A stretch of 64,000 nucleotides of DNA, taken from Isoetes taiwanensis. Lineage: Eukaryota; Streptophyta; Lycopodiopsida; Isoetales; Isoetaceae. Both the position numbers and the translations under genes were made by a program. Each line of letters starts with the position of its first letter. The stretch's first letter is position 1. The notes beneath the pieces were generated by a model, which had not been told where the DNA came from, ran no database searches, and was given only the letters and a program-made list of their open reading frames with translations. Below, piece by piece: positions 8,337-45,263 of this stretch. The stretch is taken from the NCBI GenBank assembly GCA_021234155.1, contig JAJEKV010000010.1, positions 21,352,833 to 21,416,832 on the forward strand. The letters are read 5' to 3'.

Positions 8337-8656
8337 ATAACTATGTAAATTTTCTTCATCACGTTTTTATAATATAGTGCTATATTGTGAAATATTGACT
8401 ATTTTGTAAATAATATGAGATTACGTTTTCATATTTTTGAGGTGGTTTGTGTGAATTTGAATATGCTACTAAAAACATACAATATAAAATTTGTCCCAAA
8501 ATTAAGACATAATCCCAATTTAATTGAATGATGGTTAAGCCAACTATTCATCCCCTTGTAGACATTGTCAAGGACTCTGCTAAGCATTCCTTAGTCGTGC
8601 GTGCGACAAAGAAGAAACCATTATTGCCCCACCTAGTTAGATGAGTCATGGACAAA

Positions 8657-8990
8657 CACTACTAGAGAATGGGCTGTTTGCGACGTCGGTTTGCGACGTA
8701 TTTGAAATGTCCACGTCGCAAAATTCGCGCGCGTTCTAATGTCGTCGCGCAAAATTCAAACGACGTCGCATGTGCGACGTCCCACGTCGCTATTGAAACG
8801 TTTGGTCAGACGTCGCAAAGGTATCCTATGTGGCAGCTGACATGGCAATGTGGCCGTTAAAAGGTAAGCGACGTGTCACGTCGCAGTTACATTGCATATT
8901 ATACGTGCCACGTCGCACTTGCGACGTGACGCATCGCAAGTGAAACGTCACATTTGCGACGTCTGATACGATTTAAAAAAAGAAAAAATC
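8657..8990. repeat. CACTA left subterminal repeats
   Basis: After the terminal repeat there are over ten copies of the words TTTGCGACGT, GACGTCGC and ACGTCGCAA in both orientations. In En/Spm elements such subterminal arrays bind the second transposon protein. The CpG density is far above that of the neighbouring DNA. Confidence 0.85.
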
Positions 8991-9062
8991 CCGAAACACT
9001 TTTTCCCCTAATTTGTGAAGGAGTTTTCGTGCACCTAGGAGATCATTCCATTAGATCGTGAG

Positions 9063-16821: not shown

Positions 16822-16903
16822 TCTCTCTCTCTCTCTCCCTCTCCCTCTCCCTCTCCCTCTCCCTCTCCCTCTCCCTCTCCCTCTCCCTCTCTCTCTCTCT
16901 CTC
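16822..16903. repeat. (CT)n/(CTCCCT)n microsatellite before LINE L1
   Basis: CT dinucleotides, then about eleven CTCCCT units, then CT again. The LINE reverse transcriptase sequence starts directly after it, and the repeat is read in frame as Leu-Pro and Leu-Ser codons upstream of GVKQGCP. Confidence 0.95.
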
Positions 16904-19048: not shown

Positions 19049-19069
19049 GTGTATGGTTGAGCGTCACAT

Positions 19070-19083
19070 AGACCTGGTGGTCT
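19070..19083 (+). other. LINE L1 3' stem-loop
   Basis: Stem AGACC/GGTCT with loop TGGT, about 20 nt after the ORF stop. It is homologous to the stem-loops at 29007 and 32743. LINE 3' stem-loops are typically recognised by the reverse transcriptase; that role is inferred here. Confidence 0.7.
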
Positions 19084-19118
19084 GCAGACACATATTTTTA
19101 TAAACATTTCATTTCATT

Positions 19119-19260
<142 letters not shown>

Positions 19261-19710
19261 TTGCGAAATGAAGTCAACAACTATCGAACTATAATGGTTA
19301 GTAGCTTATTCTCAAAACTCTTTTCCACAATTCTAGAGAAGAAACTGAGTAAATGGGCAGAGGATAATGAAAAACGTGCAGAGGCGCAGGCTGGCTTTAG
19401 AGCAGGAAGATCGACCTTGGATCATCTATTAGTTTTAAAAACTATATTTGATAAGGTCAAAGGGACAAGGAAGCCAGTATACATGGCATTTGTTGATTTC
19501 CGAAAAGCTTTCGATCAGGTGCCAAGAGGCCAATTGTGGGAGAGGTTGGAGAAGTTAAATGTGCCACATGATCTCAGGGATGCTGTTAGGGTGCTTTATG
19601 ATAAGGTACTAGTCCAATTATCTCAACCTTTTTCTTTGAGTATTCCGGAATGTGTAGAGAGTAATGTAGGGGTGAAACAAGGGTGCCCGTTATCCCCCAC
19701 ATTATTTGGA

Positions 19711-21073
19711 CTCCCCCTTAAACCCCCTTTGGTTTGGGTGCATATTCACACGGGGGGTGACTCCGGGCAACGAGAGCTGTTGGATAGGCATATTCACCCC
19801 TTATTCCTTAATCTATACCGTACGTAAAGTTCCTCGTTTGTGGGGTATGCAAGTACAAAATTTGCTATACTGTATAACAAGATTCACAAAATACTATAAG
19901 ATTTCAAGCAGAATACTATATGGTGTTGATTTTGTACGTGCAAAATACAATTATGAGGGCTCTCGCTGCCCTACGTCATCCCCCGTGTGAATATGCACCC
20001 AAACCAAAGGGGGTTTAAGGGGGATTTTAATTTAAATGTGTTGGACCTAATGGTTGTGTTAATTAATGTCAATGGTAGTTATGTGTTGGTTGTTAATGTC
20101 AATGGTTGTTATGTGTTGGTTGTTATGTGTTGGGGAATTTAGTTTTTATATGTTGGATGTTAATAGTTTGTGTTGCAAAAAAAATGTTTTGGCCCTTCGG
20201 GGCCTTAGGGACGCCCCCCCCCCCCCCTTGTTGTGACAAAAAATTTAGAATTCAAACCAGGAAAAAACTAGAATTCATTTGAGGCTTTCATCACCTGTAG
20301 CTTTTGAATTTCATCACAATAAAACAAATAGAACATAAGTAAAAGTTACCATAAAGATAGAGCAGATTGATCCCATTATTGAAAGTCATAAAGTTTGCAA
20401 CACCCATACACAAACATTTTTCAACTGGAATTTAACAGCAGCCTTTGGTCTCCATGGATTCTTGTGGTGAGAAACCCAAAGTGGAAAACTTTTCTGCTTG
20501 TTAGCACAAGGATCTAGAAGCCTTGGAATTTGCTTAATAACTGCCTCAAAATCTAAAAATGCATGGTAATTTTTTGCAAGCTTCATTCGGAATGAGCCAT
20601 AAAACAATATCCAATAGCGCAATCCTGTATTAATCAGTTGGTAGGATGTGAAAGCCTACCAAACCCGGCCGAAAAATTGCTGTTTTAGCATAGATAACTT
20701 AACCAAACATATCCATATCATACACTATCAAAAAGATCGCAGAGAGAGCTTTCCAACGCAATAAAAATCATCTCAAACAGAGCTCTGGATCAAAAGTTAT
20801 AATAAGAAATGTGTTGCCGGCGGGGAAACTGCACTACATGCGCCCTTCAAGCCCTTCATGTGCCCATTATGCACCACACACACAAAAAGAGGGCTTTTGT
20901 TGTGAGCCATTGGTTGTTGACCATTGGAAAAAAAAGGCTAAAATCAATGGCTCAGAAATGGTGCACTCTAGATGTACGCATTAGTACATCCATTTGAATA
21001 CATCACGAAATCATAGGAAAACCTTAGTGAAAAGCGTACAAAAACTTAAAGAAAACCCCCTGTTATTATGCTA
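19711..21073. mobile_element. 1.36-kb insertion splitting L2 between LFGL and FDGLEDW
   Basis: LINE homology stops at 19710 and resumes at 21074 exactly where the other copies are continuous (LFGLFID). The left part is a complete MITE (19712-20024). The rest (20025-21073) holds GTTATGTGTTGGTTG-type short tandem repeats near 20040-20150, a poly-C run of about 14 at 20214, and otherwise non-coding DNA. It could be one element or two nested ones. Confidence 0.7.
19712..20024. mobile_element. 313-bp MITE with about 43-bp terminal inverted repeats
   Basis: The left end (TCCCCCTTAAACCCCCTTTG, continuing GTTTGGGTGCATATTCACAC) is the reverse complement of 19981-20024. Pairing is perfect for about 43 bp and then continues imperfectly (GTGAC versus ATGAC). 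There is no ORF inside. The target duplication is not clear. Confidence 0.88.
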
Positions 21074-21763
21074 CATATTTGATGGTTTGGAAGATTGGTT
21101 GCGTGATAATTGCCCAGATGGGATAGATTTGCATGGATATATCATTCAATTGCTAATATATGCCGACGACGTGGTTATTTTTGCACGGTCCAAGGAGCAC
21201 ATGCAGAAACATTTGGATCGGCTGGCTTCTTTTTGCGACAACAGGTATGCAAGTAAATTTGGAGAAAACAAAAATTATGACAGTAGGAGTTTTGAAGCAG
21301 AACTCTATTTTTAAATACAAGGGACAAGTGGTAGAGATGTGTGATTCTTATAAGTATTTGGGTCTTGTTTTTAGTAGAAACCACAGATGGAATACCTGTA
21401 TTGCACAAAGAGTTGATGGGGGGCAAAAAGCTTTATATGCACTACAAAGCATGTGTAGGAGATCCCATCTTTGGTCATGGTCTCTTAAGGTGAAACTTTT
21501 TCAATCTCTGGTACAGAATGTTGTTCTTTATGGGTGTGAAATTTGGGGGCCAAGTCTCCCACGTTGTTTATGGGAAGATCTTGAACAAATCTTAAAGAAG
21601 TTCCTAAGATTGGAATTGGGGGTTAAATCCCAAACGCCATATCCTATGATGTTAGCAGAAAGTGGGCTTATGCCGCTTGAGGGGGAAGCGCTTCTTAAGA
21701 GTATCCATTACTTTAAGAAAGTATGTGACATGGATGGGGTAAGAATTCCATATAAGGCTTTAT

Positions 21764-22994
21764 TCCTAGGATGGGTCCTATGACAACATATATATCGGCC
21801 TAAGTGGTGTTCTCATTGAGCTTTGTAAAACATTGAGTACAAATGGATCCCTCACTAGGGGTAGGTAAATTTGGAAATATGAACTTTAAATGCTCCGAAA
21901 CTAGACAATCATCGAGAGCATGATGATACTAAAGAATACAACATAAAAGATGGTTTTATCCGCCACTTGGTCGATGCAAAGGTGAGAAGACCTGGTGACT
22001 GCTTCTTATCGGGAAGAAGAACCACACCTTCTCAGGTTTTTGAGGAAAGCCCAAGCAAATGGTTGAAGCACGACCCCACGCACTCTGGCAACCACAAGAC
22101 CTTAAAAAATCCTGCAGAGTCAAGGCTGAAAGAAAAATAACCCGTCAATGAGTTAGATGCCATAGGCAAGAAGACTCGGAGGCTCCAGGGCCACGCCGAG
22201 AAAGAAACAACAACACCAATCGAAACCGTCCCAAGGAAAAATGACCCTCAGCGGGAAAAACAACCGATTAGTGCCAGCCGAGGCTACGTTGCCACCGAGA
22301 GAAAAATGAAAAAGAGTTATGCCTCGAAACTACATCGCCATCGCCGAAGAGAAAATGCATAGCAAATACTTACCGGAGGCTACAAAGGCTACCGAAAAAA
22401 GAAACTATGCAAACAAAGCTGACAACACCAGACCACAAGATAGACAGATCCACACTGTGAAAATGAATAATAAACATTGTCCAAGAGAAAATGAACAAGA
22501 AAATAAGTCACGAGCCATGCCGAGAAAGAATGAAATGATAAGAAGTCGCGGAGGCTACAGAGCCACACCGAGAAAAAATAGAAATAAGAAAATATATATC
22601 TACAAAGAAAAAAGAAAGCACAGAGGATATCGAGGGCTGCAAGGCGACTTGAAAAGTACAGAAGATTTGATAGACTCTGAGAAGAACGAGATAATGAGTA
22701 GGCCTCAGAGGCTAAAGTGCCACATCGAGAAAACTGATGAATAAGAACATAGGTACTATCAAAAACATCGAAAGGAGGGGGAATGAGAAAACAAAATAGG
22801 ATAAGAACAGATGCAGACAAACCATCAAGGAAGGGAGGGTGAGGGAAACTGGTAGGATAGAGAAGCAGAAAACTAGCTCAAGAGAACGCCGATGACGAAA
22901 AAATGAAAAGATGTTTGAATAAATAGGGAGTGCAAAAATGCCCCCATCCAGGAATGTCGGTGTTCTATTGCTATCGCAATAGAACCGCGGGCAT
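21764..22994 (+). mobile_element. Hairpin-ended element, copy A (1.23 kb), head-to-tail with copy B
   Basis: Starts TCCTAGGATGGGTCCTATGA; this 5' end (attcctagg to atcggcc, 39 bp) recurs exactly at 22993-23031 as the start of copy B. Near the 3' end lie an inverted copy of the start (CCATCCAGGAAT, 22945-22956) and then a hairpin at 22962-22985 (arms GTTCTATTGC and GCAATAGAAC, loop TATC), ending GCGGGCAT. The last 146 bp match the last 146 bp of copy B. It sits in L2 with no clear target duplication (ATT is shared at every junction). The structure resembles Helitron2/Helentron ends or a circle-integrating tyrosine-recombinase element. It has no transposase gene. Confidence 0.75.
22177..22735 (+). 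repeat. Degenerate GAGGCTACAGNGCCACNCCGAGAAAA repeats in copy A
   Basis: About seven diverged copies, at 22177, 22279, 22322, 22374, 22507, 22548 and 22701. Shared words are GGAGGCTACA, GCCAC and CCGAGAAA. Spacing varies from roughly 40 to 150 bp. No coding frame is preserved. Confidence 0.6.
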
Positions 22995-25900
22995 TCCTAG
23001 GATGGGTCCTATGACAACATATATATCGGCCGATAGAAGAGGAACAAATCTCAACATGGACAAAGAAAGAAAGGAAGCCAAAATGAAAACTGTTCGGAAG
23101 CAAGGGAGAAATGAGACTATAAGGGTCACTGAAATAAAAACAAAACAGAATGCACATATAAGTCTGATAGAAAATATGGTAAAAGAGGAACGACCACAAA
23201 GCCCTCAAGGTACGAGAGGATGAACCCGCATAAAGGAGAAAGAAGGAGGACACAATGGAACACCGCCGCGGAAGATGGAAGAGAAGCATAAAATGAAGGA
23301 GAAGATGGAAAAGTGCAAAGAAGAGATGTTGAAAGGAACTTATGGAACAACAAAGAACCGAGCCATGAACCCGACGACATCAATAGAGTGACGATGGCAA
23401 ATGGCCAATGCACCAATACATACTACACTAACAAAGATACAAAAAAAATCGAAGTATCCTAACTAGCAAAAGACAAGGAGCAAGAAGACAAAGAAAGAAC
23501 CCGACACAACTAAAGGAGTAATGTGAAACAAAACAACAAGCCAAAGGAAATCAATGAAGGGAACATGGCATACACAATCGAATAGAGAAATGTTATCAAA
23601 TGGAGCTGCTGAGATAATGAGGAGCGTATAACAAAAAGGAGCACAATAACCCATAATGGAGCAAGTCGAATCTAATAGAACAGATTGAAAATGTGGAATA
23701 AAGAAAGGGAGAAATGAGTCCACAAGGATCATTGAAACAAATGAAACAGGAAGCTAATAGGACATATGGAGCAAGCGTAACAAATCTAAAAACGAAGATA
23801 ACAAAGGGTCAAAGCGGAAAACATAAAAGCATAAAAATGGGAGTAAAAAGGAGCCAAAAGAATACCTAAATGACAAAAGTAAAAACGCCTAAAAACAAAG
23901 AAACCTATTGACAAACTTGAACAAGCAGAAATAAAGGCATAAAGTACTTGAAAATTTGGAAATCCTAGAAAAAAGTGAGCAACCAGGCTAAAACCAAGCC
24001 ACAGGGGCAATGGGTTGGAAACGTAACAAAAAACATAGGATTAGCAAATGCAAGAAGAGAACTAGGCAGGAAAATGGAAAATTGAAACCCATGGTACCAA
24101 AAATCTAAAGAGAGTATATAAAACATGATAAAGAGTCAAATGAAGGCAATGTAGTTTGAAAGAGTAGCTTAAGGCAATGGTACAAAGAAGGCAAGATGAA
24201 AGTGCAAATGGAGCAAATGAAACGGCAAAAAATAAAAAGAGCAAACGAAGCTAATAGGAAATAATGGAATTACTGAGACCAAAGGAACTTCCTGTGACAA
24301 ACAGGGAATGGTGGCGATGTAGTAATTCAAAAAAGGATGAAGCATATATAGGTGAAATGATCAAGGATACCAAAAAGCTAAGGAGCAAATAAACCACTCG
24401 CACTCTAAAGCATAGAATGTGGAAACCATGGAGCAATGTAGCAAAGAACAATGATAACTCAATGGAAAAAGCATCAAAACCTGATAAAAACATGACCCAA
24501 GTGGTCCAGAGCCATGCAAAGAAAGCAAACCAGTGTACTACTAAATCTCACCGAATATAAACAACCACTATATAACTGACCATTAAGAAAATAGACAACA
24601 GATAAAAACCATTAGCAAAGGCTAAGATATCGATTCACCGCTTTACTGATGTTGTGAAACACAGCAGTGGATTGAAACAGCCAAACCAACTTGGTACAAC
24701 GGGATTGAACATAACATATCGAAAGCAGAGAAACAAGTAACAAAAGAGCAATAAAAGACAGAACACAGTTGGCAAAAAAGGATGACTAGAATAGATCAGA
24801 TGAGGGTTACAAATCAAGAAGAAAGGGCTACATAAAGGCTAATAGAGTAAAGACAATTCAAAAGGGTAATTGAATAAAAAGATAAAAAGGAACTTGAGCG
24901 AAAAAAGAAGAATGAAGGATCCACACAGTCAATAAACAAACGAAAGAAAACACATATGAAACTAATGAAATGTGGATCAAAAAACAAATAGAAATGCGAA
25001 CTAAAAAAGGAACTAAAATAGCGAAAAGAAGTCAACGAGAATACATGGAGCAAATGGCTAAATACAGAATGAACCAAAAACGAGTGAAAGACTAGTTGAC
25101 AAAGGAAACATGCGTAAAACATGATGCCAAACCACCAATATGCGAAAAATTAGTATTAACCGAACTACATATATAGGGAGCAAGATCAACAGAAAAAGTT
25201 CAAAGATGTCGAAACAAGGGTAATGACGTGAACCCAGAGGGACCAGCATAACTGGAAAAGCAACCCACAGGACCCAAATTATGGGAGGACGAAAAATAAG
25301 AAAGTGAGCAAGAGTTGCACGAAGGCAAGAATAACGGAGCAACAAAAGGGGGCAAAGGAACGGATGTAACTGCAAATAGGATGACTCAAGCGAAGAAGGG
25401 AGAACAAGGAACAACATGATAAACAACTAGAAAATTTATAGGAGACCCTATAAATGAATAGCTCAGTGAGATCCATAACTTGCAAACAACGCCCAGAGCA
25501 ACTCCAATGCCAGAACACAAGATAGATAATCAAAACAACTAAGAAATCTGGAAAAACAACGATGGGGAGAACTATGTAATATATGCCATGAAAATGTGCA
25601 CATCACCATAATGCCGCCACAAGCAGTCTCCAATGAAAAATTGCGATAGAAGAACTACAAACTGCCTCTAAAAGGCTACCATGAGTGAAATAAGGACGCT
25701 ATGCTTAATGCAGAGTCAAGAAGAACGGGGCACAAATACGAATAGCATCCAATAGAAGAATGAGCACCTTGAGCAAAATGACATACAACCTAAAAACTGA
25801 AAAAAACGTGCCCACCAAATGGAAAACATCCAAAGACCATAAGTCCGCGATAGTCCCGCACAAGAATGTAGTCATAAAATTGGAAAACTGAAAAGACTAA

Positions 25901-26389
25901 TCAATTGAAAGCGGTCCAGCACTGACTAACACGCTATGTGAAATAAACTAAGAGCAAAGGGCAACAACATGATGAGTTATCACTATTGGCAAGTACGAAT
26001 CTTATAGAAGAATCTCCGAGAAAAAAGCAAATATCGGTTAAAACACAATACTACCTCGGGGACATCCATAAAAGACACGTACACAAGTCTTTGCAAAACT
26101 ATAAAAGACACGCATTACACAAGTGATGCAACCAACCACCTAACCATGGAGTATTATACAACACAAATGTGTTAAACTAATGACAATGAGAAAGATAAAA
26201 GTGCAAAAATGCTTGACAAACAATAGTTGTGAGTCCGGTACACAACAGATTGGACATGCAACCTATAAAACCGGTATAAAATACGACAAAAAGGGGTCAG
26301 ACCCTAAACCCTTATATGGGCCTTCTAGATGGAGAGTAAAACCATATTGAGCCCATAGCACAATAAAATCAATGCAAGTTTCGGTAAGA

Positions 26390-26760
26390 ATCGAAAGAAA
26401 TGAGAAAATAAAAACATACCTAGGTTTTTGCTTGAGAAAGGTCCACAAAAAGAAAAATCGTGACCAATATTAGGAGAGCAAAGTATAACCTATCTTGAGC
26501 AATTAAATGAAACGAGAATCCGGCAACACATTAATCCACTAGGTTGCGCTTTGAAGAAACCACAAAAAAATTCGGGGGCCAACATTAGGAAAATATGATT
26601 AAACTATACCTAGACCGGACTCACGTGGCAGATGAATGAAATGAGAAAACAAAACCATACCTAGGTTGTGCTCGAAAAATCCACAAGAAGAAAAATGACG
26701 AGCGAACATTAGAAAGACGAAGTATCACATATCAAGGCATTTGAATGGAACGCGGATACA
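26390..26760 (+). repeat. Three degenerate ~120-bp repeats in copy B
   Basis: Blocks near 26395, 26530 and 26636 share CATACCTAGGTT(T/G)TGCT, CCACAA(A/G)AAGAAAAAT and a following AACATTAG(G/A)A word. They are diverged and non-coding. Confidence 0.6.
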
Positions 26761-27079
26761 ACAAATATTGCTAAAAACTGACGAAGGCATTCTATAAAAA
26801 GGACAAAACATCTACAGACAACGAATAAGGATAGGAAATGTACTTTTGCCGTTAAAATGAGGACTAAAGCCTAGATCTTTACAAAAGAAATGTTCTTAAA
26901 GTATGACTTTACTCACATGGGTCTCTCTAAACAATTTAAAAAGAAGGATAAAATCCATGTAACAGCTCATATGTGACTAGCAACTTCGCACGCTACAATG
27001 AAAGATAAAAAACATCCCCAAGACAATAGAATTCGAAAACCTTCCAATCACAAATAAAGATAAATACGACCCCAAAACA

Positions 27080-27292
27080 TTGGACCCGAAAAATTGTTTC
27101 ATTAGGAACTTGAACCTATGACCACAGAAATAATATTGGATCCGAAAAAGTGACACAAATAAAGGATAAATACGACCCCAAAAAATTGTTTCATTCGAAA
27201 CTTGAACCTATGACCACAGAAGTAATATTGGATCCGAAAAAAATTGCTTCATTCACAACTTGAACCTATGACCACAGAAACAAAAACCATCT
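27080..27292 (+). repeat. Three tandem repeats with ACTTGAACCTATGACCACAG
   Basis: The phrase AACTTGAACCTATGACCACA, followed by GAAATAATATTGGATCCGAA, occurs three times (starting about 27108, 27200 and 27257), each preceded by AATTG(T/C)TTCATT. This is a local duplication in copy B. Confidence 0.8.
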
Positions 27293-29006
27293 GGCTATCC
27301 AATGCACCCTCTCAAATTCTGTTAATACTTTACCAATTATTGTTATATATATCTGAAGAAGGCAAAAACGACTTACAGAAACTGATTTACAGATAATATG
27401 GAAGGTCTGCGGTGAAGAACTGGAGGGTCGCGGCAACGAACCGACTCCATGCAAGGAATCGGTCTGAGTTATTCTGCCAGAGACTCAAGGTCCTTGCTAA
27501 CACGATCTGGAGTCAGATTCGGCTCAAAACTGGCCTTGACAAACACATCAAAGCTGGGTCTCCATAAGCACCGACAACCAGGAAAACGGCACGGGCCCTT
27601 ATGCTGAACATCAAGCACTAAAATCAGTATGAACAGAACCAGGTTAGGGCTTGCAACCATCGATTTCTGCTAAACCACAGATCGCATCTGCAAAAGTGGA
27701 ATAAAAAAGGTATCAATATTATCCGGCATGCCCTGTGCTCCAGAAAGATTCCTTGCAACCATCGATTCATGCTTTGTGCTCTAGCAAGATCAGGAAGAAA
27801 ATTGATTAAAAACTGTCCAGATGAATATATCGAGTGGTCTACCAAGATCATACAATAAACCAAAGAACTGGATTCCTGCAAAACCCTCACCGCTAAGAAC
27901 CCATTCAAAATAAAAAACCAAGAAAACCCAGATCTGGACTGCACAAAACTCTAGTCAAAAAAGTATTACTTGAACCACATCTAAGAAGGCTTAGCGGGAA
28001 CCCATTAGAGCGGCAGCGGCGGGCAATCCAAGCCGGAAGGAAGAGCCCTACTACCGAAGCTTCTGAAAAGCCAAAGAAAAACTTCGCAGAGAAAGGAAAA
28101 GGATGCTACATCCAATCTCAAAAGCAGAGAAACGAAAAAGAATATGATCACCAGACCAGAAATTTTAGCAGATTGTGCAATAAAGATCAAACATAGGAAT
28201 AGTCTTTGAACGGTAGATTATCAAACTGGTAGGATAGAGAAGCAGAAAACTAGCTCAAGAGAACGCCGATGACGAAAAAATGAAAAGATGCTGAATAAAT
28301 AGGGAGTGCAAAAAAGGGGCGTCCCCATCCAAGGAATGTCGGTTCTATTGCTATCGCAATAGAACCGTGGCATTGGATAGTAAAGATAAAGGATTATTTC
28401 AAGACATGATGAAGTGGCTTGGTAAATGGAACATTGCTTGGGAGGATGTGATACTTGTGGAATCGGATTTGAGGACTTGGATCACATCAAGAATTCAGGG
28501 CAAGTTATGGTCACAACCAAAGACTAAGATGGTCCTCTATAAGCAGAATATTAATCCGAATCTAGAGCGGGCAAAGCATTTGGGAGAGAATCTCTCTATC
28601 CAGAAAAGGCATAATATTTGCAGGATTCGTTTGAGCTCACATCACTTAGGAGTGGAGGTAGGGAGATGGGGGCACATTATACCAAGAGATCAAAGGTATT
28701 GTCAAATATGTGGTACAGAGCAGGTAGAAGACGAAGATCATGCATTGCTTCGGTGTAAAGCGTTTGAGACAATACGGGATGAGTATGGAGTCCACTTTGA
28801 TTATCTCCAAACTTTCTTCACACTAGATGGAGATGTAATTGGGAGATATTTGATAGATCTCCTTAACTTCAGAAAAACATGTATAGATACACTACGGGTG
28901 ACTGGAGTGGATGCTATAGATGACATGAGTGAGAGGGATGAGCTAGATGAGGACTCGGAAACTCATCTACTATTTTATGATGTTGTTTAACATTGTTTTG
29001 TCTAAT

Positions 29007-29021
29007 AGGCCCGTGAGGCCT
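29007..29021 (+). other. LINE L2 3' stem-loop
   Basis: Stem AGGCC/GGCCT, about 17 nt after the ORF stop and followed by CCCATAGACATAATA. Compared with L1 and L3 the stem has a compensatory A-U to G-C change, which supports selection for RNA pairing. Confidence 0.75.
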
Positions 29022-29632
29022 CCCATAGACATAATAAAACTTTCTTCTTCTTCTTCTCGTGTTGAGGCGGAACCCTAGGCGCTAGTTGTATGCGCTCCAA
29101 GAACTCTGTTCGCTGAAAACTCAGTTTGCTGCAATTACTCTGTTCTCTGTTTGCATTAGGCAAGGCCACGGCCTGTAATAGGCCGTGTGGGCTCATCTTT
29201 CAGCTGTTATTCTTCTTGGCTAAGCACAAATCGGCTCAGCCTGGCTGAAACCTCTGTTCGCTGCAACTACTCTGTTTTCTAAGGCAGATTCGTGGCAAGA
29301 AATATATTGAATAGGTTCTAAGGCAGGGCAAATATAGAAGATCGGCCAGTGATTGGAATATTTCTGGCTCAGATATTTTGGATTCTGAAGCAAACCTGAG
29401 GCAACAGGGTCTTGTGGATTCGAGTTGATCTCTTCCCAAGATCTGAGCCGTGGAAGTTGTGGTTGTCACGAACTGATTGGGCTATTTCTGGATCAAATAT
29501 TCCAGATTACTCTGTTATATCAGATTGGGCATCTGTTAAAAAGGGACAAACGGTCAAGAGCAGGTACAACGTTGGGCAACTGAGTTTCAGGAGCAAGCAA
29601 CTACAGAACAGGTTTTTCGGGAGCAGGAGGTC

Positions 29633-32600
29633 ATGGCAAAAAAACAGAAGAAGCCATCTGGGTCTAAACCGAGGCCTACTCCAGAATCTGATGGAGAATC
29701 CAGTGATAACACTAGCTCTGAAACTGAAATCTCATTGTCTACAATTTTGCTTGAACTCACATCTTTCAGACAGGAGGTAGCAGTAAGGGAAAAACAATGG
29801 CTTGAAGCTCAAGAAAACCTAACGGATGAAATTAGAAAACTACGCGTAGAAAATGGATTGCTCCGAGAAAATATCACCATTATGAGGACAGAACTTGATA
29901 CTGTAAAAACTGAAATGAATGATATGAAGGAGAACCTGAATTTTTTGCAGCAGCAGCAGACAACGGTATCAATGGGGTCCTCTTCCCTTGACGAAGTGGA
30001 GGCATTAAAATCCCAATTCCAGCAATATGTAGAAGAGCAAGACCGGAAACAACGATACTTAAATCTTAGAAATAATGGCAGTACAAGATTCCCCAACACA
30101 GGAGTATATACATGCCGCGGAAAAAGTGTAGTTGATTATCTAATATGTGGAGAATCAGCAAGGGAATGCATCCAAGATTTCAAGATAATAGAGGATAGAA
30201 TGGAGTCTGACCACGCCCCTATGGTATTCTCAATACAAATTCCTGCTCAAAAAATTCAAGAGAAGAGAATCACCCATATGATGCGCTTCGATGCAAAAAA
30301 GGCTAGTATGTTCAGGAAACAAATAGAGGGCAGATTGGAAAATCAGATTTGGTCTGATGATGTAGAGGAGCTAAATGGTGTTATCACCAATATTCTGTTA
30401 GACTCTGCCTCCCAATGCTTTGTGCCACAAAGAATCATTAAAGGGCTTAAATGCAATTCCTGGTATGACCAGGAATGCCGTGATTTGAAGAAGAAGGTAC
30501 AATATGCTGAATTTCCAATGAAACACCAACTTAGAAAGGAGCTTAGGCGCACTATCCGACGTAAGAAGAGGGTATATCTCAAACATAGACAAGAGGAGTT
30601 GATTCAAGAGTATTTAAAAGAGCCAAAGAAATTCTGGAATAAAATGAAGCAGCCCAAGCAAAGGGATATTCCTCTTACTGCGCATGAACTTTGGAAACAT
30701 GTTAGTTCACTCTATCATATGCCTGGTATAGTAGAAGAGAGGAAGGGAGTATCTGAACTAATCCTAACTAAGGAGGATGTGATTGAGGGAATCAGTAGAC
30801 TGGCCAACGGCAAAGCAAGAGATGCTCAAGGCCTAGGTGGTGAGCTTTTAAAATGGGCAGGTAACAGCATGCATACTGGAATTGCCAAACTGCTTAATGC
30901 GGCCCTACGGCAAGGATTTCCAGTAGATTGGCAGACAAATCGTGTGGTCCCTATTTTGAAAGGAGGAGACCCCTCTGACGCAAATAACTACCGCACTTTG
31001 ATGGTCAGCAGTCTCTTCTCCAAGTTATTTGCCTCTATTATGGAGAAGAAAATCAGTCAGTGGGCGGAGAAAGAGAATGCACGATCGGATGTGCAAGCAG
31101 GTTTCAGAGCAGGAAGGTCTACCCTCGACCATTTGATCACGTTAAAGACGATCATGGACTCTGTTAAAGGTAAGAAGAAGCCAGTCTATATTCTCTTTGT
31201 TGATTTTAGGAAAGCATTTGATAAGGTGCCTCGAGATAAGTTGTGGGCAAGAATGGAACAATTGCAGGTACCTGTAGACTTGAGAGAAGCCGTCAGAACT
31301 CTATATGAAAAGGTACTAGTTCAACTATCATTTCCTCTTTCTCTTGATGTGAATAATAAGATTTCAAGTAATATCGGGGTAAAACAGGGATGCCCGTTAT
31401 CTCCCACCTTATTTGGTTTGTTTATTGATAGTTTAGATACGTGGCTTTCTGATAATGGTGGTGATGGTACAGACTTGCATGGCTACGCTGTTAGGCTCTT
31501 GTTATATGCTGATGATGTGGTGATTTTTGCCCGTTCACAGGTAAACATGCAGAGGCATCTGGATGCATTAGCACATTTTTGTGCTCACACGGATATGCAG
31601 GTGGACCTAGAGAAAACAAAAATCATGACAGTTGGCATACTTAAACAGGAAGAGTGTTTTCAGTACAATGGGATCATGGTCCAGGTATGTGATTCATATA
31701 AGTATCTTGGCTGGACTGTTCACAGGAATCACAGGTGGAATGCATGCATAGCCCAACGAGTGGAAGGTGGGCTAAAAGGCACTATATTCTTTGCATAGTC
31801 TTAGCAGAAAAATACATTTATGGTCATGGGATTTAAAGATTAAGCTCTTCTTTGTTCTAGTGCAAACTGTTGTCCTTTATGGATGTGAAGCATGGGGACC
31901 AAGCCTGCCCAAGTGTCTTTGGGAAGACATTGAGCAAATACTTCAAAAATTCCTGAGGCAAGAATTAGGAGTTAAAATGCAAATCCCATTCCCTATGCTA
32001 CTAGCGGAATGTGGGCTTATGCCAATGGAAAGGGGAAGCTATAGTAAGATGCATTAAGTATGTGAGAAAGCTGAAACAGCATGATGACACATGGGTTGTA
32101 TACCGAGCTATGCAAGCTAGTATTGAACAAACATGGTATTTTGATATCAAACAATGGTTGGATAAATGGAATATATCCTTAGATGAAGCCCTCATATATG
32201 ATGGAGACATCAGACACTGGGTAAAACATAAAGTGATGGCCAAACTATGGATGAACCCACAACCGAAGATGAGCATGTATGAGCGTCAGATGAATCCAAG
32301 TTTGAGACAGGCTAAACACCTTCAGGAAAACATCTCGTTAGGAAAGAGACATGCGATTAGCCGGATGAGATTGAGCTCTCATAGACTTGGGATTGAAACA
32401 GGGCGTTGGGGGAAGATTCCAAGAGATAGACGAACATGTAAGGCTTGTGGTAGCATGGACGTGGATGATGAGCATCATGTGTTGATAAAATGCCCTGCTT
32501 ATATAGGGGTCAGAGATAGATATGGTATATCTGTAGATGACTTAACTCAATTATTTGACTTAAACTCTCATGTGGTGGGATCCTTTATTATCGAGGTTCT

Positions 32601-32721
32601 ACAACATAGAGATGGATATGTAAAACAGTTACAGGTATTGTTAGAGGATGAGAGTAGTGATGATTGGGATGAGAGCACTGAGGAAGCCCCTGATGTGGAC
32701 TTCCCAGATGACTTATTGTAA
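29633..32721 (+). pseudogene. LINE ORF (L3): coiled coil, endonuclease remnant and reverse transcriptase
   Basis: The 721-codon ORF (29633-31798) starts MAKKQKKPSGSKPRPTPESD. A coiled coil follows (about residues 40-145). It then jumps to the C-terminal end of an APE-type endonuclease (GKSVVDYLICGES ... RMESDHAPMVFSI), so most of the endonuclease is missing by an in-frame deletion. The reverse transcriptase is complete: ILKGGDPSDANNYRTLMVSS, QAGFRAGRSTLDHLITLKTI, FVDFRKAFDKVP, GVKQGCPLSPTLFGLFIDSL and LYADDVVIFARS. Two single-base insertions, near 31778 (GGLKG versus GGLKALYS) and near 32030 (MERGSY versus MEGEAIV), break the frame. Coding continues to 32721 with CKACGSMDVDDEHHVLIKC and an acidic tail. 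It is dead as it stands but recently so. Confidence 0.9.
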
Positions 32722-37689: not shown

Positions 37690-38593
37690 TAGGGTTCAAT
37701 CGGCAAGAAGCGGCAAAAAAACAGAAGAAGAGGTGATTATTTCTTAATTCAAAATGAGGGACAATGACGTGGCATAAAATTCAAAATAACCGACGCTCAT
37801 TAATTCGCACTCCCGCAATCTCCGCTTTGGTATGCACCACCCGATTCTACCACAAAGGTGGTGCCAAAATGTGGCGTCAAAATGCGCGTTTTTGATACAC
37901 CACAGCGTGCTTTTATCCATTAGCCTCCATCTTTGATTCCTGACGTTCTTAGTCATGCCCATTCTTGTAAAGCACATCTTACGGTTGTTAACAAAGTTTA
38001 AAATGAAACGCACTTATTTGCTGCAAACGCACTTCAAAAGGAATCTTTGAAAGATTCCCTAAAATTCCCTTAAAAATGCCATTTTCTTGGTATATTTGTG
38101 ACAAGTGTGACAATTTGAATATTTTAGGCACCATTTTTGGAGGGGAATTTGAACTCAGCTTCCATTCAAAATTGTTTGGTACCATTTTTTGGCCCCCTAG
38201 TTTGGTTTGAGAAATAGTAATATTTTTAAGGACAAAACAAAATAGACATTGAAAAAAAACAGCAAGCGCTAAGAGTGCCCAAAAACGTATTTAGTTCAAA
38301 GTTTATAAATTCACTACAAAATTATGAACAAAATTGCAAAAAATGCAACACATTTTGATATTGCCTCAATGAAGCAAATATTGTCACCTTAAAGTATGCC
38401 TCACACACGCGAGGTGAAGTCGAAGATGCTTTTGGCGCTTTGCTTTATACACTTGCTCTTATTTGCTCCTCCACTTGCTATATAGACTTCAGATACCACG
38501 ATGTCGACGTATGTATCCAATCTGGACTTTTTTAAACTTTGTAATTTATTTGTTCTCTGTAGTCTTTAGTTTCTTCCAAATAAATTTCAAGAT

Positions 38594-38829
38594 GGTATAA
38601 ATTTATACCTTAATAGATAGTAATATGTGGACATAGTATGCTAGAGAGTTCGCACGGTATAAATTTATACCGCAAGAAGACTTGAGCGGTATAAATTTAT
38701 ACAACAAAAGAACTCGAGCGGTATAAATTTATACAGCAAAAGGACTCGAGCGGTATAAATTTATACCGCAAGAGGACCCAAGCGGTATAAATTTATACCG
38801 CAAGAGTTTTCTCGGTATAAATTTATACC
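38594..38829. repeat. Array of the 20-bp palindrome GCGGTATAAATTTATACCGC
   Basis: Core GGTATAAATTTATACC occurs at 38594, then a regular array at 38655, 38687, 38719, 38751, 38783 and 38813, i.e. steps of 32, 32, 32, 32 and 30 bp. Spacers share CAAGAGGACTCGAG-like sequence. Two members have lost the right CCGC. Confidence 0.95.
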
Positions 38830-38963
38830 AAAGATATATATATATATGTGTATTATATAAATATATAATATACAAGAATTTAATACGTTCTACGGTGCAT
38901 GTTCCTACGGAGCAAGTTCCAATTTTAGCATGTTTAGAAGGTTCTATGTTCTAGAACCCCCAC

Positions 38964-39485
38964 CCAAAAACTAGAATGCTTATTCTCATCTGGATAGCTT
39001 CTTTATATACTGAAAAAGAGGCTATTTTTTGCATCTATGCATGTGGGATATATGTGCAAACCCTAAATTCTAGAATAGTTTTTTCTAGAATAAGGTTCAA
39101 ATTTCGTAACTTTTTTTTACTTTTTACAAAATTTTACAACTTTTTTTTATTGTTCTAGAAGGTTCTATATTCTAGAATAGGTTCTTGTACAATAAGGTTC
39201 AAATTTAAGTAACTTTTTTTTTTTTTTACAAAAATTTTACAACTTTTTTTTTTTATTGTTCTAGAAGGTTCTATGTTCCAACCCCCTGAATTTTCCGGTA
39301 CATTCCATAATTTTTGGAACATTCTAGATCTTCCTAGAGCATTCTAGAACTCCAATCTAGAATTTTCTAGCCAAAAACCAGAATGCTTATTCCCATCTGG
39401 ATGGCCTCTTTATATACTGAAAAAAGGCTCTTTTTTGCATCTATGCATGTGGGATATATGTGCAAACCCTAAATTCTAGAACCAT
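38964..39485 (+). repeat. Direct duplication of a ~120-bp block
   Basis: The block AATGCTTATTC(T/C)CATCTGG ... TTTATATACTGAAAAA ... GCATCTATGCATGTGGGATA ... AAACCCTAAATTCTAGAA is present at 38970-39085 and 39390-39482. Between them a second duplicated block (GGTTCAAATTT..GTAACTTTTTTT, with ACAACTTTTTTTTATTGTTC) appears at 39095 and 39200. Confidence 0.85.
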
Positions 39486-39544
39486 CCTAGATATTCTAGA
39501 ATTATTAGGGTTGGAGATAACCTTAACAAGAAAAAAGCACACTT

Positions 39545-39640
39545 ATATTCCTGAATGGAAGTGTGGAATGTTGGTTAAGGGGTTCCCCCCAAACCCCCCT
39601 TGTGGGGTTGAAGGGGTCAGGGGTTCAATTCCCCCCTAAC
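39545..39640 (+). mobile_element. tRNA-like SINE head (1)
   Basis: GAATGTTGGTTAAGGGG resembles a polymerase III A box, and GGGGTTCAATTCCCC about 60 nt later resembles a tRNA TpsiC arm / B box. It is followed by A-rich and TTTTGGG sequence and the 182-bp repeat. It does not fold into a full tRNA, so a SINE head is likelier. Confidence 0.5.
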
Positions 39641-39668
39641 GCAAAAAAATTTTGGGTAAAAGTTGGGA

Positions 39669-40030
39669 GATCCCCAAACAAATGGACGGTCGAGATGGGC
39701 CACCAGAGGGCCGCCAAGAAGCTTCTAGAAGCCACCAGATCCGACGGACGAGATTGCAAGGGAGCAAACCGACGGCCAAGATCTGAGGGGGTGAATATAA
39801 AGAAGCTTCCGGAAGCCACTCCTAATGATTATATATATATATATACTGAAGATCCCCAAATAAATGGACGGTCGAGATGGGCCACCAGAGGGCCGCCAGG
39901 AAGCTTCTAGAAGCCACTAGATCCGACGGACGAGATTGCAAGGGAGCAAACCGACGGCCAAGATCTGAGGGGGGTGAATATAAAGAAGCCTCTGGAAGCC
40001 ACTCCTAATAATTATATATATATAATATAC
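39669..40030 (+). repeat. Two tandem copies of a 182-bp unit
   Basis: Units start GATCCCCAAA(C/T)AAATGGAC at 39669 and 39851 and end in an AT run. They include GGTCGAGATGGGCCACCAGA, AAGCTTCTAGAAGCCAC and CCGACGGCCAAGATCTGAGG. Sequence identity is above 90 percent by eye. Confidence 0.93.
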
Positions 40031-40056
40031 TGATATCCGAAAAAAAGAGAAGTCTT

Positions 40057-40105
40057 GCGGTATAAATCTATACCGCGAGACTTCCTGCGGTATAAATTTA
40101 TACCG
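40057..40105. repeat. Two further GCGGTATAAATYTATACCGC palindromes
   Basis: Copies at 40057-40076 (one base changed) and 40087-40105, 30 bp apart. A decayed copy lies at about 41427, and a nearly complete one at 42064-42082 close to the element's right end. Confidence 0.9.
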
Positions 40106-40249
40106 TTTTTTTTTTATATATACAAATATGTGAACGTATATATATTGAATATATATATATATATATTAACATGTATAAGATGTATATATATATATATACA
40201 AGAAATTTAATCCGTCCTACGGTGCATGTTCGAGTTTAGCATGTTTCTA

Positions 40250-40960
40250 CGTGCAAGTTCTTGTAAAAGAATCTCTTGAGAATGCTCTAAATTCATAGAT
40301 TCTCTAAGATTCTACCAAGGTTCTCTTAGAGGGTTCGTGAGCATTTCTCTAAATTTTATCTAGATTCCATTAAATTTCCTTAGATTCTCCAAGATTCTAT
40401 AAAGATGCCCTTAGATTCTCTTAGATTCATTTAGATTTTATCAGATTGCTCTTAGATTCAAAGAGATTCTATAAAGATTCCCTTAGATACTCTAAGATTT
40501 CATCAACATTTTCTTAGATTCCCTTAGATTTTATGAAGATTCCTTTAGATCCCCCTTTTTTTTTTAAGAGATTCCCTTAGGCTTGTAAATATTTTCCTAG
40601 ATTCTCTTACATTTTATAAGATTTTCTTACATTCTATTAGATTCTTCTGGATTTCTTTACATTCTAGAACTTTTTAGAATAGGCTATTCTAAGACTTCCT
40701 GGAACATTCTAAGACTTTCAATATATTCTAGAACTTTCTGGAAGTATTTCCCTAGATTTCTTTACATTCTCGTAGATTCCCCTATATTCTAGAACATTCT
40801 AAAACTTATTAGAACAATTTGGAACTTTCTGGAAAAATTTTCTTAGGCCCCCCCAGATTCTTTTATGCTTTAGATCTTTCTAGAAGATTCTAGAACTTTC
40901 TAGAGCCTTCCAGAACATTCTAGAACCTTCTTGAACTAGCTAGAATGTTATAGTCTATTT
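40250..40960. repeat. Degenerate AGATTCT / TTCTAGAA repeat field
   Basis: Over 700 bp made of diverged TTAGATTCTNTNAGATT and TTCTAGAAC words. The last 60 bp are the most regular and form a 5-bp-periodic array (see 40878-40935). No ORF. Confidence 0.75.
40878..40935. promoter_or_regulatory. Heat-shock-element-like array
   Basis: Twelve alternating TTC and GAA triplets, each starting 5 bp after the last, from TTC at 40878 to GAA at 40933; eleven are perfect (one is GAG). Heat shock factors bind nGAAnnTTCnnGAAn, so this is a formally very strong site. It may simply be an expanded TTCTAGAACn repeat; no gene lies close on either side. Confidence 0.45.
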
Positions 40961-41014
40961 TATCTTAATGGGACCACTACCCTTAAGTATATGTAAAACA
41001 TAAATTATTCATAG

Positions 41015-41085
41015 AATTAATGCTTGGTCTAGTGGTTAGAATGAGGGGCTGGGGGGTCAATGGCCAGGGTTCGAATCCCCCACAC
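41015..41085 (+). mobile_element. tRNA-like SINE head (2)
   Basis: TGGTCTAGTGGTTAGAAT (A-box like) and GGGTTCGAATCCC (perfect B box), about 35 nt apart. A body with repeated CCGTAGGATC / GCCGTCGGATC words follows to about 41370. There is no clear acceptor stem, so this is a SINE rather than a tRNA gene. Confidence 0.6.
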
Positions 41086-41370
41086 AACATAAAAATTTTA
41101 AAAGCCTTTTCCTAAGGGATGAGCATTCAACTTGGGCCGTAGGATCTTGGACCCGATCAAGGGTCGAGATCTCACGCAACATGAGCCATAGGATCTATTA
41201 CATATAATTTCCAAAGTCATGTGCACCGTCGGTCAGGATCAGATCAACCTGGACCGTAGGATCGTGTCTATACGAATTATATATAAACTCCCAAGCCATC
41301 TGGGCCGTAGAATACGTCCCAAAGCCACGTGAGCCGTCGGATCTCGAACGGACGGTCGGATAAGCGCGAC

Positions 41371-42063
41371 AAACATAAGAACATATATAAGTTAGATATA
41401 TATACATAAAATATGTAGTCCAGGAGTATAAGTTTATATCGTGCAAAATCTTGTGGGGTCTTTCTTGCTCCCAAAGGTTTTTGCAACTTAATACTGTTGA
41501 AATAACACACTCAAGGGATAATTTTATGCAGTTTTCTTAGTTTTTTAGTTCAAAAAGTTCTAAAATAGTTCTAAATTCTCTGACCTTGTAATGCAATGTT
41601 AGAGCATAAATTAGTCGAATCCCGTTGTTATTTTTACTTTTTTTTCTCTACACACATGCTAACTTCACTTTAGGTAGCTCAAAAACTGCTTCTAAAGGCA
41701 AAGGACCCCAAAATGTTATGGATACACATGTGTTCAACGAGAAGGAAACTACGTAGTTTGTCCATAGGGGTGCGAGGAGTAGCAACCCCTCAAAAGTTTA
41801 CCTATTTCTTTGCAAACAGACAAAAAAAAGCAAGATAGACAAATACTTCTCTGTGGAGAAATGTGCGATGGCATGCTTTCGCTTCTGAGATGATGGAATT
41901 GTGCTGAAGACTCTCAACATTGACAAGGAGCTTGACTATCTTCTCAACATCACTATATTGTGGATTGGTATTGTGCAAGCCCAAAGACATGATGAATACA
42001 TCTCCGAGAACAACAAAGAAGGCCATGTAATCACAGAGCTTCACTACTTCAACTTCTGTTTCC
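41371..42063. other. No convincing gene
   Basis: Right interior of the composite element. The minus strand at 42044-41802 reads MKLCDYMAFFVVLGDVFIMS with no family match. Plus-strand reading of the same block (LNIDKELDYLLNITILWIGI) is equally open, so neither is supported. Confidence 0.4.
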
Positions 42064-42879
42064 TCGGTATAAATTTATACGGCATCGTCAGTTGGAACTT
42101 CAACTAACTGCATGATTTCGTGGATGTATTATCATTTGTAATACCATATGATGCAAAAACAATAATTTTTCATTCAAGCAGTTTGTTCAACTGTCTCCCA
42201 ATGTCTTTTAAGGTCAATTAGGATGTTTAGCCAAAATGGTTGTGAAATAACAAATTTTTTGTCTTCTATAACAGCCAATATAAACGTTCTAAGGGATAAG
42301 ATACAAAAGCGTCTAATTTTTTCATATGAGTTTGCCCCTTTTCCCCTCTAAAATGAGATATTTTTCTTTGTTGTTCTTCTCCTTAATGTTAAGTCTTCCT
42401 AAAATGTCTGTTTTCATGAGCAGTTTTATAAATCTTTAGACACAAGATAGTAAAAGAGTCCTTTTTAGGGGTATTTTAGAATTTTGTAAATTTTTAGAAG
42501 GAATCTTTCAAACGCACTTCTTAAATAAGTGCGTTTCATTTTAAACCTTGTTTGTTGTCTTCTCACGGCCATCCGCTCCTTGGTGGCCTTTGATCTGCCT
42601 TAGCCCCTTGCATTGGCAACCTTTTGTAATTGATTCTCAGTTTTTTCCTGAGAACTCTCAGGTGTTATCATCTATTGCAACTTTTTCTTCTTCTTCAATC
42701 ATGGGAGTTCGCACACATATTGCTCTTTTTGTACTTCGTTGTGATTTTTCTACTTGATTCAATATAGTCTTTTTGTTTGCACTATCCGGCTCTTAGTTTT
42801 TATCTTTCTAATTCATTCTATTCGGTTTTTCCTAGATATCTTGTGGTATTTTGCAGACTTACCAGTGGCGATATTGCTT

Positions 42880-43830
42880 CCCTTATTCTCATCTATTTTT
42901 CAGTCACGCGCATCCTCAACTTTGAACTGCCATGCTTCAGCTTGGGGACGTTTTCGCCATTGGTGTTCCAACTTTAGCATTCCTCCCCTTCCCGCTATAA
43001 GTCTGGCCACGTGGCCTCTTTCTTGGCCACTTTGATGAGCTCTCATCAGTCTGCTGCATTAGTTTCTATTGCTTCTGCCTCTATTTCATTTTTTCATAAC
43101 CTTGCAGGTTTGCCATCACCTTGTTCATCATCACTCCTTACTCTGGTCCGTCAAGCCGCTTTGCGTGTTACTGACTCTTCACATAACCGTCTTCCTTTGA
43201 TATCGGACCATGTATGGAGCTTGATAGTTCTTCTGGCTTTCCCTTCTGCTGATTGGTTGAGCCTTATGAAGGTGTCTTTAATCTCATTATGCTTTGTGGG
43301 TTTTTTACAAATCTCTGAGGCCTTGCATTCAAATTGGCATGACTTGTCTTTCTTTCCAACTCCCGCTTTTGTATTTATTCACAAGTCCAAATGTGACCAG
43401 CAAAGTGCAAGTAAGGAGGTCTTGATTGCTCGCACGCTTACTTCTTTCTGCCCAGTCCATCTGCTTCAATGCCTTCTTTGTTCTTGTGCTTTTTGGGCAT
43501 CCAATCCTCAATCTGGTGGACATCTCTTTCGTTCTTTTCTTGATTGTCTTCGTCCTCTTTCTTATTTTTTAGCCAAAAATGGTGGTATGGGTGTCTGAAC
43601 ATGTTGGGACTTGATCCTCGTCGGTATGGTACTCACTGTGCACGACGAGGAGGTGCATCTGCAGCTTCATCGACCTCGATTTCTGCTGACAATATACGAT
43701 CCCATGGGCGATGACGTTCGAAGTCATCTCGCATTCGCTACATTATTCCAAGCCTTGAAGAGCGTCTCTTGGTCTCTCGGAGCTTGGGCTTATAAGGTGG
43801 AGTGTTCCTTTTCTTTCGGCCATATGTTTG
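42880..43830 (+). pseudogene. Tyrosine recombinase (phage-integrase fold) pseudogene
   Basis: An N-terminal SAM-like domain reads STLNCHASAWGRFRHWCSNF, then after a frame change near 43010 ASFLATLMSSHQSAALVSIA and VRQAALRV. The catalytic domain follows: SLISLCFVGFLQISEALHSN (box I, with the usual Arg changed to Gln), FIHKSKCDQ, VLIARTLTSFCPVHLL, a frame change near 43590, MLGLDPRRYGTHCARRGGAS (H..R box II), SHGR and SSRIRYIIPSLE (catalytic Tyr). A TGA replaces the expected Trp after SHGR. The family covers Crypton, DIRS and Ngaro mobile elements, in which a tyrosine recombinase integrates circular DNA; which subgroup is unclear. It is inactive by two frame changes, one stop and loss of the box I Arg. 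Its 3' end lies next to the hairpin junction at 43845. Confidence 0.72.
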
Positions 43831-43901
43831 TTTTGATATATAGAGTCTTCCAAGAATGCAATGGTTCTATGCCACCATAGAACCATCATTCTTGGGAAGA
43901 C
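43800..43901 (-). mobile_element. Second head-to-tail junction of the hairpin-ended element family
   Basis: Read on the minus strand: a word GTCTTCCCAAGAAT, a hairpin with arms ATGGTTCTATG and CATAGAACCAT, then CATTCTTGGAAGACTC. The sequence then continues ACAAACATATGGCCGAAAGA. This parallels the A/B junction at 22940-23035 (inverted start word, hairpin sharing GGTTCTAT/ATAGAACC, then CATTCCTAGG and ACAACATATATATCGGCCGA). Upstream on the minus strand CTCAAAGAGAAGGCTGATGG matches CTCAAGAGAACGCCGATGAC of the A/B 3' ends. Confidence 0.6.
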
Positions 43902-44897
43902 GACATACCATTAGCCTATTTTTATCAGATTTTTTCTTTTGTCTCCATATATTGTCATTACCTTTCCAGTTCTTTCCCATCAGCCTTCTCTTTGAGCATT
44001 CCTTTCCTTTTTTTTTTTTGTTTCTAGTTTTCCCTCCCACCCTACCCTTTCTTATATTTCCATTTCTCTGCTTCTTTACTTGTTGGATTTCTTGACTTGT
44101 GTTCTTGTCTTTCATTCTCTAATTTCCTTTTTTCATGGGCGGATGATCTTTCCCATGCTAGTTTGCAGTGTTTATCCTGGCTATGCGGAGGTCCTTCTTC
44201 GCCTTATTATTCTGGATCTGTTGGATGAATGTTCTTCCCAGCTATAGCTGACAAAAGTTTTTTCTGGCTGAGCGGATGTTCTTTGCTATCCATTGTTTGA
44301 ACTTTCTTTTTTCGTATTTTTTCTTTATATTTATTTTTGGATTGCGTTTTTATTTAGTGAAAAGCTTTTCTTTTTTCTTCGCTAACAATTTGCCATGGGT
44401 TTTCTTGTGAGCTTTTAACTTGCTTACATGTCCTTTTTATTCTTGACACTTTTTGGAGTTGACAGTTCTTGGAGCAGGGGAAATTGATGTTTGACGTGTC
44501 GAGTCTGATGGCATTGGGAGACAGTTCATCATTTTGCTGATTATGGCGGATCCTATCTTCTTCAGTTATATTCAGAGTCCTTCAACATATAGTTGCTAGT
44601 TCAGAATTCATCTCCATTGCTTATTTCACTCTTAGTCCATTTCTTATCTTCATGGTTTTCCCGGAAACCCGAAAGGGTGGGGTTTTTAGTCCAGTTGATA
44701 AGATTTCGGACTTTCAGTTTGTGTGGCTTTATTTTTATAAGACCTTCGGTAACTGTCTAATTCCGAGGTTTTTAAATATGTTTGGCTTGGATATGTTTAT
44801 GGCCATTCATTGTTACTATTCTACTCTACTGTTGTTCTTGTTTTTTAGAACGCTTAATAAGAAAGCCACTTCACATTGGCATCTATGGAATTGGTGG
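43902..44897. other. Pyrimidine-rich non-coding stretch
   Basis: T/C-rich on the plus strand, i.e. purine-rich on the minus strand, matching the composition of copy B in its own orientation. It is probably the body of the minus-strand hairpin-ended element whose 3' end is at about 43860. Its far end was not found. No gene. Confidence 0.45.
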
Positions 44898-45259: not shown

Positions 45260-45263
45260 TTCC

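Follow-up and report, generated by a model that had tools for sequence, protein, structure and literature searches.

The window analysed here is a stretch of 64,000 nucleotides from the genome of Isoetes taiwanensis (contig JAJEKV010000010.1, positions 21,352,833 to 21,416,832), and its subject is a 6610-bp insertion at 21764-28373 whose anatomy and relatives point to a retrotransposon of the tyrosine recombinase (YR) kind. The insertion has two arms, A and B (Table 1), each opening with a start repeat and closing with an end repeat. A first-pass annotation of the window had described a 39-bp start common to both, and the two copies are indeed identical if the ATT core is included (21762-21800 and 22993-23031). 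The shared end of 146 bp that it listed is also real, but is better given as 145 and 148 bp with 91% identity (22846-22990 versus 28223-28370). The hairpin that it placed at each end, GGTTCTATTGC-TATC-GCAATAGAACC, forms a perfect stem at 28341-28366; the inner copy (22961-22986) contains a single mismatch, so that this claim was slightly overstated. In 100 shuffles of the window 0.00 chance matches to this hairpin are expected. The values of the B end (inverted start word of at least 7, 5' hairpin of at least 5, 3' hairpin stem of at least 11) were jointly reached by none of 20,000 pairs of T|T sites drawn at random from the window, with the element itself left in the draw; the inner copy with its stem of 10 would fail the stem threshold of 11. 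ATT is common to all three junctions and nothing beyond it, as had been stated. Where A meets B, one palindrome (22943-23006) is built from the inverted end word, the hairpin, and the start word. The interiors of the arms have no common sequence by blastn, and both arms are A-rich on the plus strand with an AT skew of about +0.5 (21801-28222). The reverse transcriptase (RT), YR, and gag-like open reading frames (ORFs) of E39, a coding relative described below, have no match in A or B (tblastn, E<=1), in agreement with the earlier remark that neither arm carries a transposase.

The insertion interrupts a long interspersed nuclear element (LINE). Deleting 21764-28373 regains an open LINE frame, and this exact cut scored best among 11 in-frame alternatives compared with two LINE relatives in the window. 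We also searched the genome (1,658,258,908 bases in 1110 contigs) with the joined 200-bp flank and scored the best 40 of 61 candidates, two being the window's own LINE halves. The four best genomic LINE paralogues align over exactly 200 bases at 94-96%. This confirms the precise empty site proposed before: it is exact, and no host bases were lost at insertion. In the surrounding region (16766-32721), RT and C-terminal frames are long and open in several LINE copies, and two ORFs begin with runs of simple repeats that translate as Leu-Pro or Leu-Ser.

The A-joint-B arrangement is not restricted to the window. A 201-bp query from the 5' end gave 1430 candidates, of which the best 40 were scored (90-100% identical), and the first-listed 20 of the 39 outside the window were fetched with about 10 kb each. 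In 15 of these 20 copies an end repeat is directly followed by a start repeat inside the element, three of them with a variant start word (L020, L024, and L026). Five of the 15 are complete, reaching their terminal end in the sequence fetched (L011, L015, L018, L022, and L028), and the remaining joint-bearing copies are cut, nested or rearranged. Four further copies consist of start, A and end between host flanks (L009, L013, L025, and L027); such solo A forms would most simply be deletions between the two end repeats, like solo long terminal repeats. No end was found in the last copy, L010. In L017 and L023 the joint is preceded by one more end repeat, in the same way in both copies, which points to a more complex sub-form. 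The left flanks differ among all 20 copies, which are therefore separate insertions. The B interior is common to the window copy and L011, L012, L014, L015, and L016, with 88-98% identity over the parts fetched. Since the same A-then-B order is seen at unrelated loci, A and B belong together as arms of a single element, and the original description as two head-to-tail elements has to be abandoned. The left flanks read AT|T in 18 of the 20 copies (exceptions L012 and L023), and GGCAT|T is found at 10 of 11 host-facing right ends in the 14 elements tabulated (exception L015). The four E39 ORFs match none of the 20 loci (tblastn, E<=1e-4). Given that they are missing from A and B as well, this non-coding form seems to spread while carrying no genes itself.

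Seven elements, the window copy included, allow the comparison of repeats within and between elements. Their two start repeats align over 35-48 letters and their two end repeats over 142-168. In four of the seven, the inner and terminal end repeats are most alike within their own element, with likeness of 0.98 in E39 (0.69 to the best other element), 0.99 in L028 (0.84), 1.00 in L018 (0.94), and 0.89 in L022 (0.82). The same four elements have their own start variants, present in both copies. Matched repeats of this kind would be the expected outcome if every transposition renewed both copies from a single template.

The joint is also conserved as a predicted palindromic fold. In 13 distinct joints 91.4% of the cells are paired versus 85.9% after shuffling, and only 35-47% if the partners are slid. 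Cells changed on both sides number 18 versus 6.1, and the covariation score is 0.151 versus 0.077; in each of these three comparisons with shuffles, 0 of 500 were as high. The clearest swaps are 12-58 (GC to AU) and 19-48 (CG to UA), and the terminal hairpin of L022 shows an additional GC-to-AT swap. Covariation events are few because four of the rows represent one clade. One could speculate, although we regard it as rather improbable, that the joint is a folded-strand recombination site: one strand would fold during or after complementary DNA synthesis and the YR would recombine the hairpin with ATT, like integron integrases act on attC.

Elements that do encode proteins are present in the same genome. 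E39 (locus L039, contig C1078) covers 2020-9647 of an 11-kb stretch (7628 bp) and has the same start word, joint, and terminal hairpin as A/B; its start reads TCCTAGGATGGGTCC and its joint falls at 2899|2900. Its minus strand encodes ORFs in two frames that we take to be gag-like, a 677-aa RT/ribonuclease H (RNase H) ORF, and a 326-aa YR. The order in coding sense is end repeat, gag-like ORFs, RT/RNase H, YR, [start repeat|end repeat], a 0.9-kb arm, and start repeat. The RT matches PF00078 (RVT_1, E 2.6e-16) and the YR matches PF00589 (E 6.8e-10), in which the R in FLRISEA, the K in RKSKCDQ, HAGR, GRW, and RYI presumably are the YR motifs. RNase H is indicated only by RVT_3 (E 4e-4, 20.8 bits versus a cut-off of 21.6), and the gag-like ORFs contain a zinc-knuckle-like CCHC with a Pfam E of only 0.2. 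The RT ORF has no methyltransferase domain over the cut-off (Dam, E 0.12).

A second relative, element C, lies in the window itself and combines an RT/RNase H remnant with a degenerate YR gene and a joint. The RT and YR ORFs are about 140 bp apart in element C and about 215 bp in E39, the only two elements compared. Element C is considered interrupted because its homologues L030-L035 run from the match to 37924-37989 straight into the match near 42554. The flank of its joint aligns to the A and B ends with scores of 86 and 81 (shuffled maximum 72), and its start aligns to the B start with 46 (shuffled maximum 41). Element C's broken YR ORF, used alone as a query, had no YR match in Pfam or among PDB sequences. 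With 206 aa of this YR as query, the genome yielded 1009 candidates; among the best 150, which were scored, the weakest has an E of 3e-25, and many have open frames of >300 aa. In 8 of 12 YR loci fetched, the window's own included, a palindromic joint starts at a distance of 56-64 bp behind the YR match.

A search with the E39 joint gave 1237 candidates, of which the best 40 were scored; we used the 29 joints whose match crosses into the start repeat, and dropped 11 end-repeat-only matches together with 20 additional rows in which the palindrome matched itself in inverted orientation. For 15 of these 29 joints, one or another of the best 150 YR matches is no more than 1 kb away, compared to a chance of about 2e-4 per joint. 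For Rep-helicases, the best 150 of 1813 matches to PF14214 were scored and none is located within 20 kb of any of the 29 joints, a result that leaves room for more distant Rep-helicases beyond these matches. End words of the A/B type are absent from 6 of 6 Rep-helicase loci of 3.5 kb, a weak test given that ends may lie outside. Two scans of viral contigs for the end words gave 0 matches. Copies with a Rep-helicase or a tyrosine recombinase had been suggested as worth looking for: the YR is found in E39 with these ends, and none of the best 150 Rep-helicase matches is near any of the 29 joints.

In the general model of YR retrotransposons, an internal joint templates the termini, and the circle that results is integrated by the YR. 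The anatomy of the insertion, its recurrence, the matched repeats within elements, the coding relatives, and the exact empty site are the observations from which we infer an RNA intermediate, a circle, the YR as integrase, and proteins acting in trans. Taken together, 21764-28373 is very probably one non-autonomous YR retrotransposon of the order DIRS, Ngaro-like in layout, that entered an ATT core in the form of a circle. Its RNA would be reverse-transcribed with proteins provided by coding relatives. The internal joint, as a stored copy of the circle junction, would supply the terminal sequences absent from the RNA, and a DNA circle would result. The YR would then recombine this circle at the palindromic joint into a host ATT (T|T) site, with no loss and no long duplication. 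Of the features of the order, YR and RT/RNase H are present in E39 and absent in the window copy, and the internal copy of both termini is present in the seven elements. The Ngaro layout is represented by the split direct repeats and by internal repeats downstream of the YR (in E39, and at the 8 loci mentioned above).

Several observations do not fit well to this scheme. The last two repeat units are separated by an arm of 0.9-1.3 kb instead of being adjacent. In the window copy, L011, and L015, three of the seven elements and all of one subfamily, likeness within the element is not above that between elements. The inner joints of the window copy (22846-22994) and of L015 (1349-1498, on the reverse complement of the locus) are about 10% diverged, although the terminal ends of both match L011 at 99-100%. 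The differences are mostly insertions and deletions in or near the palindrome, and would reflect either palindrome decay or assembly error. Two of the five pairing measures are not above the shuffles: 4 pairs are changed on both sides (218 of 500 shuffles as high), and 8 further pair types occur (500 of 500 as high). The start of element C is only unclearly related to the A start (score 24; 25 of 1000 shuffles as high). By the pattern used, the joint is missing in the other 4 of the 12 YR loci (L032, L035, L036, and L037). No listed YR is near 14 of the 29 joints; because only the best YR matches were listed, this does not show these joints to be YR-less. E39 is the only complete coding element read, and its end is just 66-69% identical to the ends of six non-coding elements, so that the exact coding partner of A/B has not been found.

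The first-pass annotation had preferred Helitron2/Helentron ends, and the strongest alternative along this line would be two independent non-autonomous copies in tandem, generated by rolling-circle replication with a Rep-helicase. The ends fit the published description of Helitron2, as far as the sections available go, with asymmetric inverted repeats, hairpins at both ends, a 5'-T, a T|T target, and no duplication (PMC3627910). The 5' hairpin at 21767-21780, overlooked before, even completes this anatomy (PMC3627910). Tandem Helitron insertions are known from parts of two further papers (PMC5148889, PMC4067079), and Helitrons are plentiful in this genome, which is rich in Helitron_like_N matches. 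Helitron2 was also our own initial reading since the 5' hairpin agreed with the published definition; it was dropped after a hairpin of the same words was seen beside a YR-like ORF at 43 kb and A-B turned out to be one unit. The AT skew, first considered a trace of single-strand or rolling-circle copying, was set aside as a family trait, because E39 is similarly skewed (about +0.2 to +0.4 over its length). Thus, the ends agree with Helitron2 but the machinery does not: the A-B pair is found again as one unit, joints are located behind YR genes, RT/RNase H and YR are encoded by the relative that has these ends, none of the best 150 Rep-helicase matches is near a joint, and the weak test with end words points the same way. 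We consider a Helitron tandem very unlikely. Of the two possibilities named by that annotation, the second has the better support: circles that a recombinase integrates at a 3-bp core.

Circles could also be handled without any RNA step. A Crypton-like DNA transposon would excise and integrate as a circle with nothing but a YR, and the RT in E39 would be incidental. The short core shared by the junctions is compatible with such an element, and the solo A forms could be its excision products. It is nevertheless a shade less probable still than the Helitron tandem: RT/RNase H lies inside the E39 ends next to the YR, the RT C-terminus precedes the YR in element C too, and a stored internal repeat is a feature of YR retrotransposons in the part of the literature available (PMC4157794). 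That the arms have no interior sequence in common might finally suggest a fixed composite, a dimer of two unrelated cassettes since copied together, with ends matched by gene conversion. The same architecture in the diverged coding E39, and the near-constant distance between YR and joint in E39- and C-type loci, make this the least credible of the explanations.

Within the YR retrotransposons, Ngaro elements are described, in the sections available, as lacking a methyltransferase and as having split direct repeats with internal copies downstream of the YR, in which PAT and DIRS1 differ (PMC4157794). The likeness proposed here is one of layout, and the Isoetes elements depart from Ngaro by the 0.9-1.3-kb arm between the inner end repeat and the right terminal repeat, by the large palindromic joint, and by their land-plant host. 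PAT-like elements (Pat1, Toc3, Kangaroo) are alike in split direct repeats, RT/RNase H, and YR but are described with the methyltransferase that was not seen over the cut-off in the E39 RT ORF. DIRS1-like elements are alike in RT, YR, and internal repeats pairing with terminal ones; their repeats, however, are inverted, not direct as here, and the same methyltransferase difference applies. Helitron2, Helentron, and HINE elements have the asymmetric inverted repeats, terminal hairpins, T|T target, and absence of target duplication in common with A/B but use a Rep-helicase where the coding relative has YR and RT. Cryptons have a YR without the RT that lies inside E39. SymbioDIRS elements are drawn as A-coding-B-A-B in PMC5890265; the last A and B adjoin in this drawing, whereas an arm separates them here.

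Table 1. Coordinates of the insertion, its host LINE, and element C in the window.
Feature	Position	Strand	Basis and remarks
Very probably one non-autonomous YR-type retrotransposon	21764..28373	- (coding sense of coding relatives)	6610 bp; recurrence of the joint layout, LINE-paralogue flanks
Interrupted LINE, left part	21157..21763	+	frame restoration, paralogue match
Interrupted LINE, right part	28374..28990	+	frame restoration, paralogue match
ATT core, left junction	21762..21764	.	other cores at 22993-22995 and 28372-28374
Terminal start repeat	21764..21800	+	inner copy matches 37/37
Hairpin TAGGA-TGGG-TCCTA within start word	21767..21780	+	folding
Arm A interior, non-coding, A-rich on + strand	21801..22845	.	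composition; E39 proteins unmatched at E<=1
Inner end repeat, left half of putative internal circle junction	22846..22994	+	138/142 aligned letters identical to terminal end, 9 gaps
Palindromic internal joint, outer inverted arms and inner hairpin 22961-22986	22943..23006	.	predicted fold -44.4 kcal/mol
Inner start repeat, right half of joint	22995..23031	+	repeat comparison
Arm B interior, non-coding, A-rich	23032..28222	.	shared with L011, L012, L014, L015, L016
Terminal end repeat with hairpin 28341-28366	28223..28373	+	151 bp identical to ends in L011, L013
Element C, left limit provisional	37924..44880	+	interrupted by about 4.56 kb at 37990-42553
RT/RNase H ORF C-terminus remnant (element C)	42551..42751	+	tblastn of E39 RT, E 8e-14
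Degenerate tyrosine recombinase gene (element C)	42892..43792	+	matched in three pieces by the E39 YR (tblastn, E 1e-77)
Palindromic joint of element C, about 60 bp behind YR gene	43848..43898	.	hairpin with same words as A/B

The other genes of the window include an amino-acid transporter and a permease of the xanthine/uracil type. Just upstream of the transporter gene there is a dense foldback (45050-45370) with perfect 40-47-bp inverted repeats beside repeated 79-bp units. At 7099-7554 a DUF7869 ORF (E 2.3e-16) is found among neighbouring open frames, perhaps part of an unrelated mobile element.

Plant ALOG proteins are thought to derive from the recombinases of DIRS elements. According to the sections available of PMC3537659, no complete DIRS element of the ALOG type was known from streptophytes in 2012, and a 2011 survey, in the part available, described green plants as lacking DIRS1-like elements, although it listed some from chlorophyte algae (PMC3266345). 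In Ceratopteris 361 repeats, 45 kb in all, are labelled DIRS in an excerpt of PMC6890710, and the term DIRS is absent from the main text of the Isoetes paper (PMC8566536). Among the papers listed by our literature searches, which largely comprise sources other than subscription journals and preprints, we found no description of the E39/A-B family by title or opening of the abstract. The family is a known kind of element in an unexpected host: this is apparently a land-plant genome with many YR genes and at least one full gag-RT-YR layout. If the joint were a folded-strand site, one would have a retro-fed cassette system in a eukaryote, with the solo A units as exchangeable cassettes. Independently of this, the structural definition of Helitron2 can be met by a YR retrotransposon, and annotation based on structure alone may therefore mislabel such elements.

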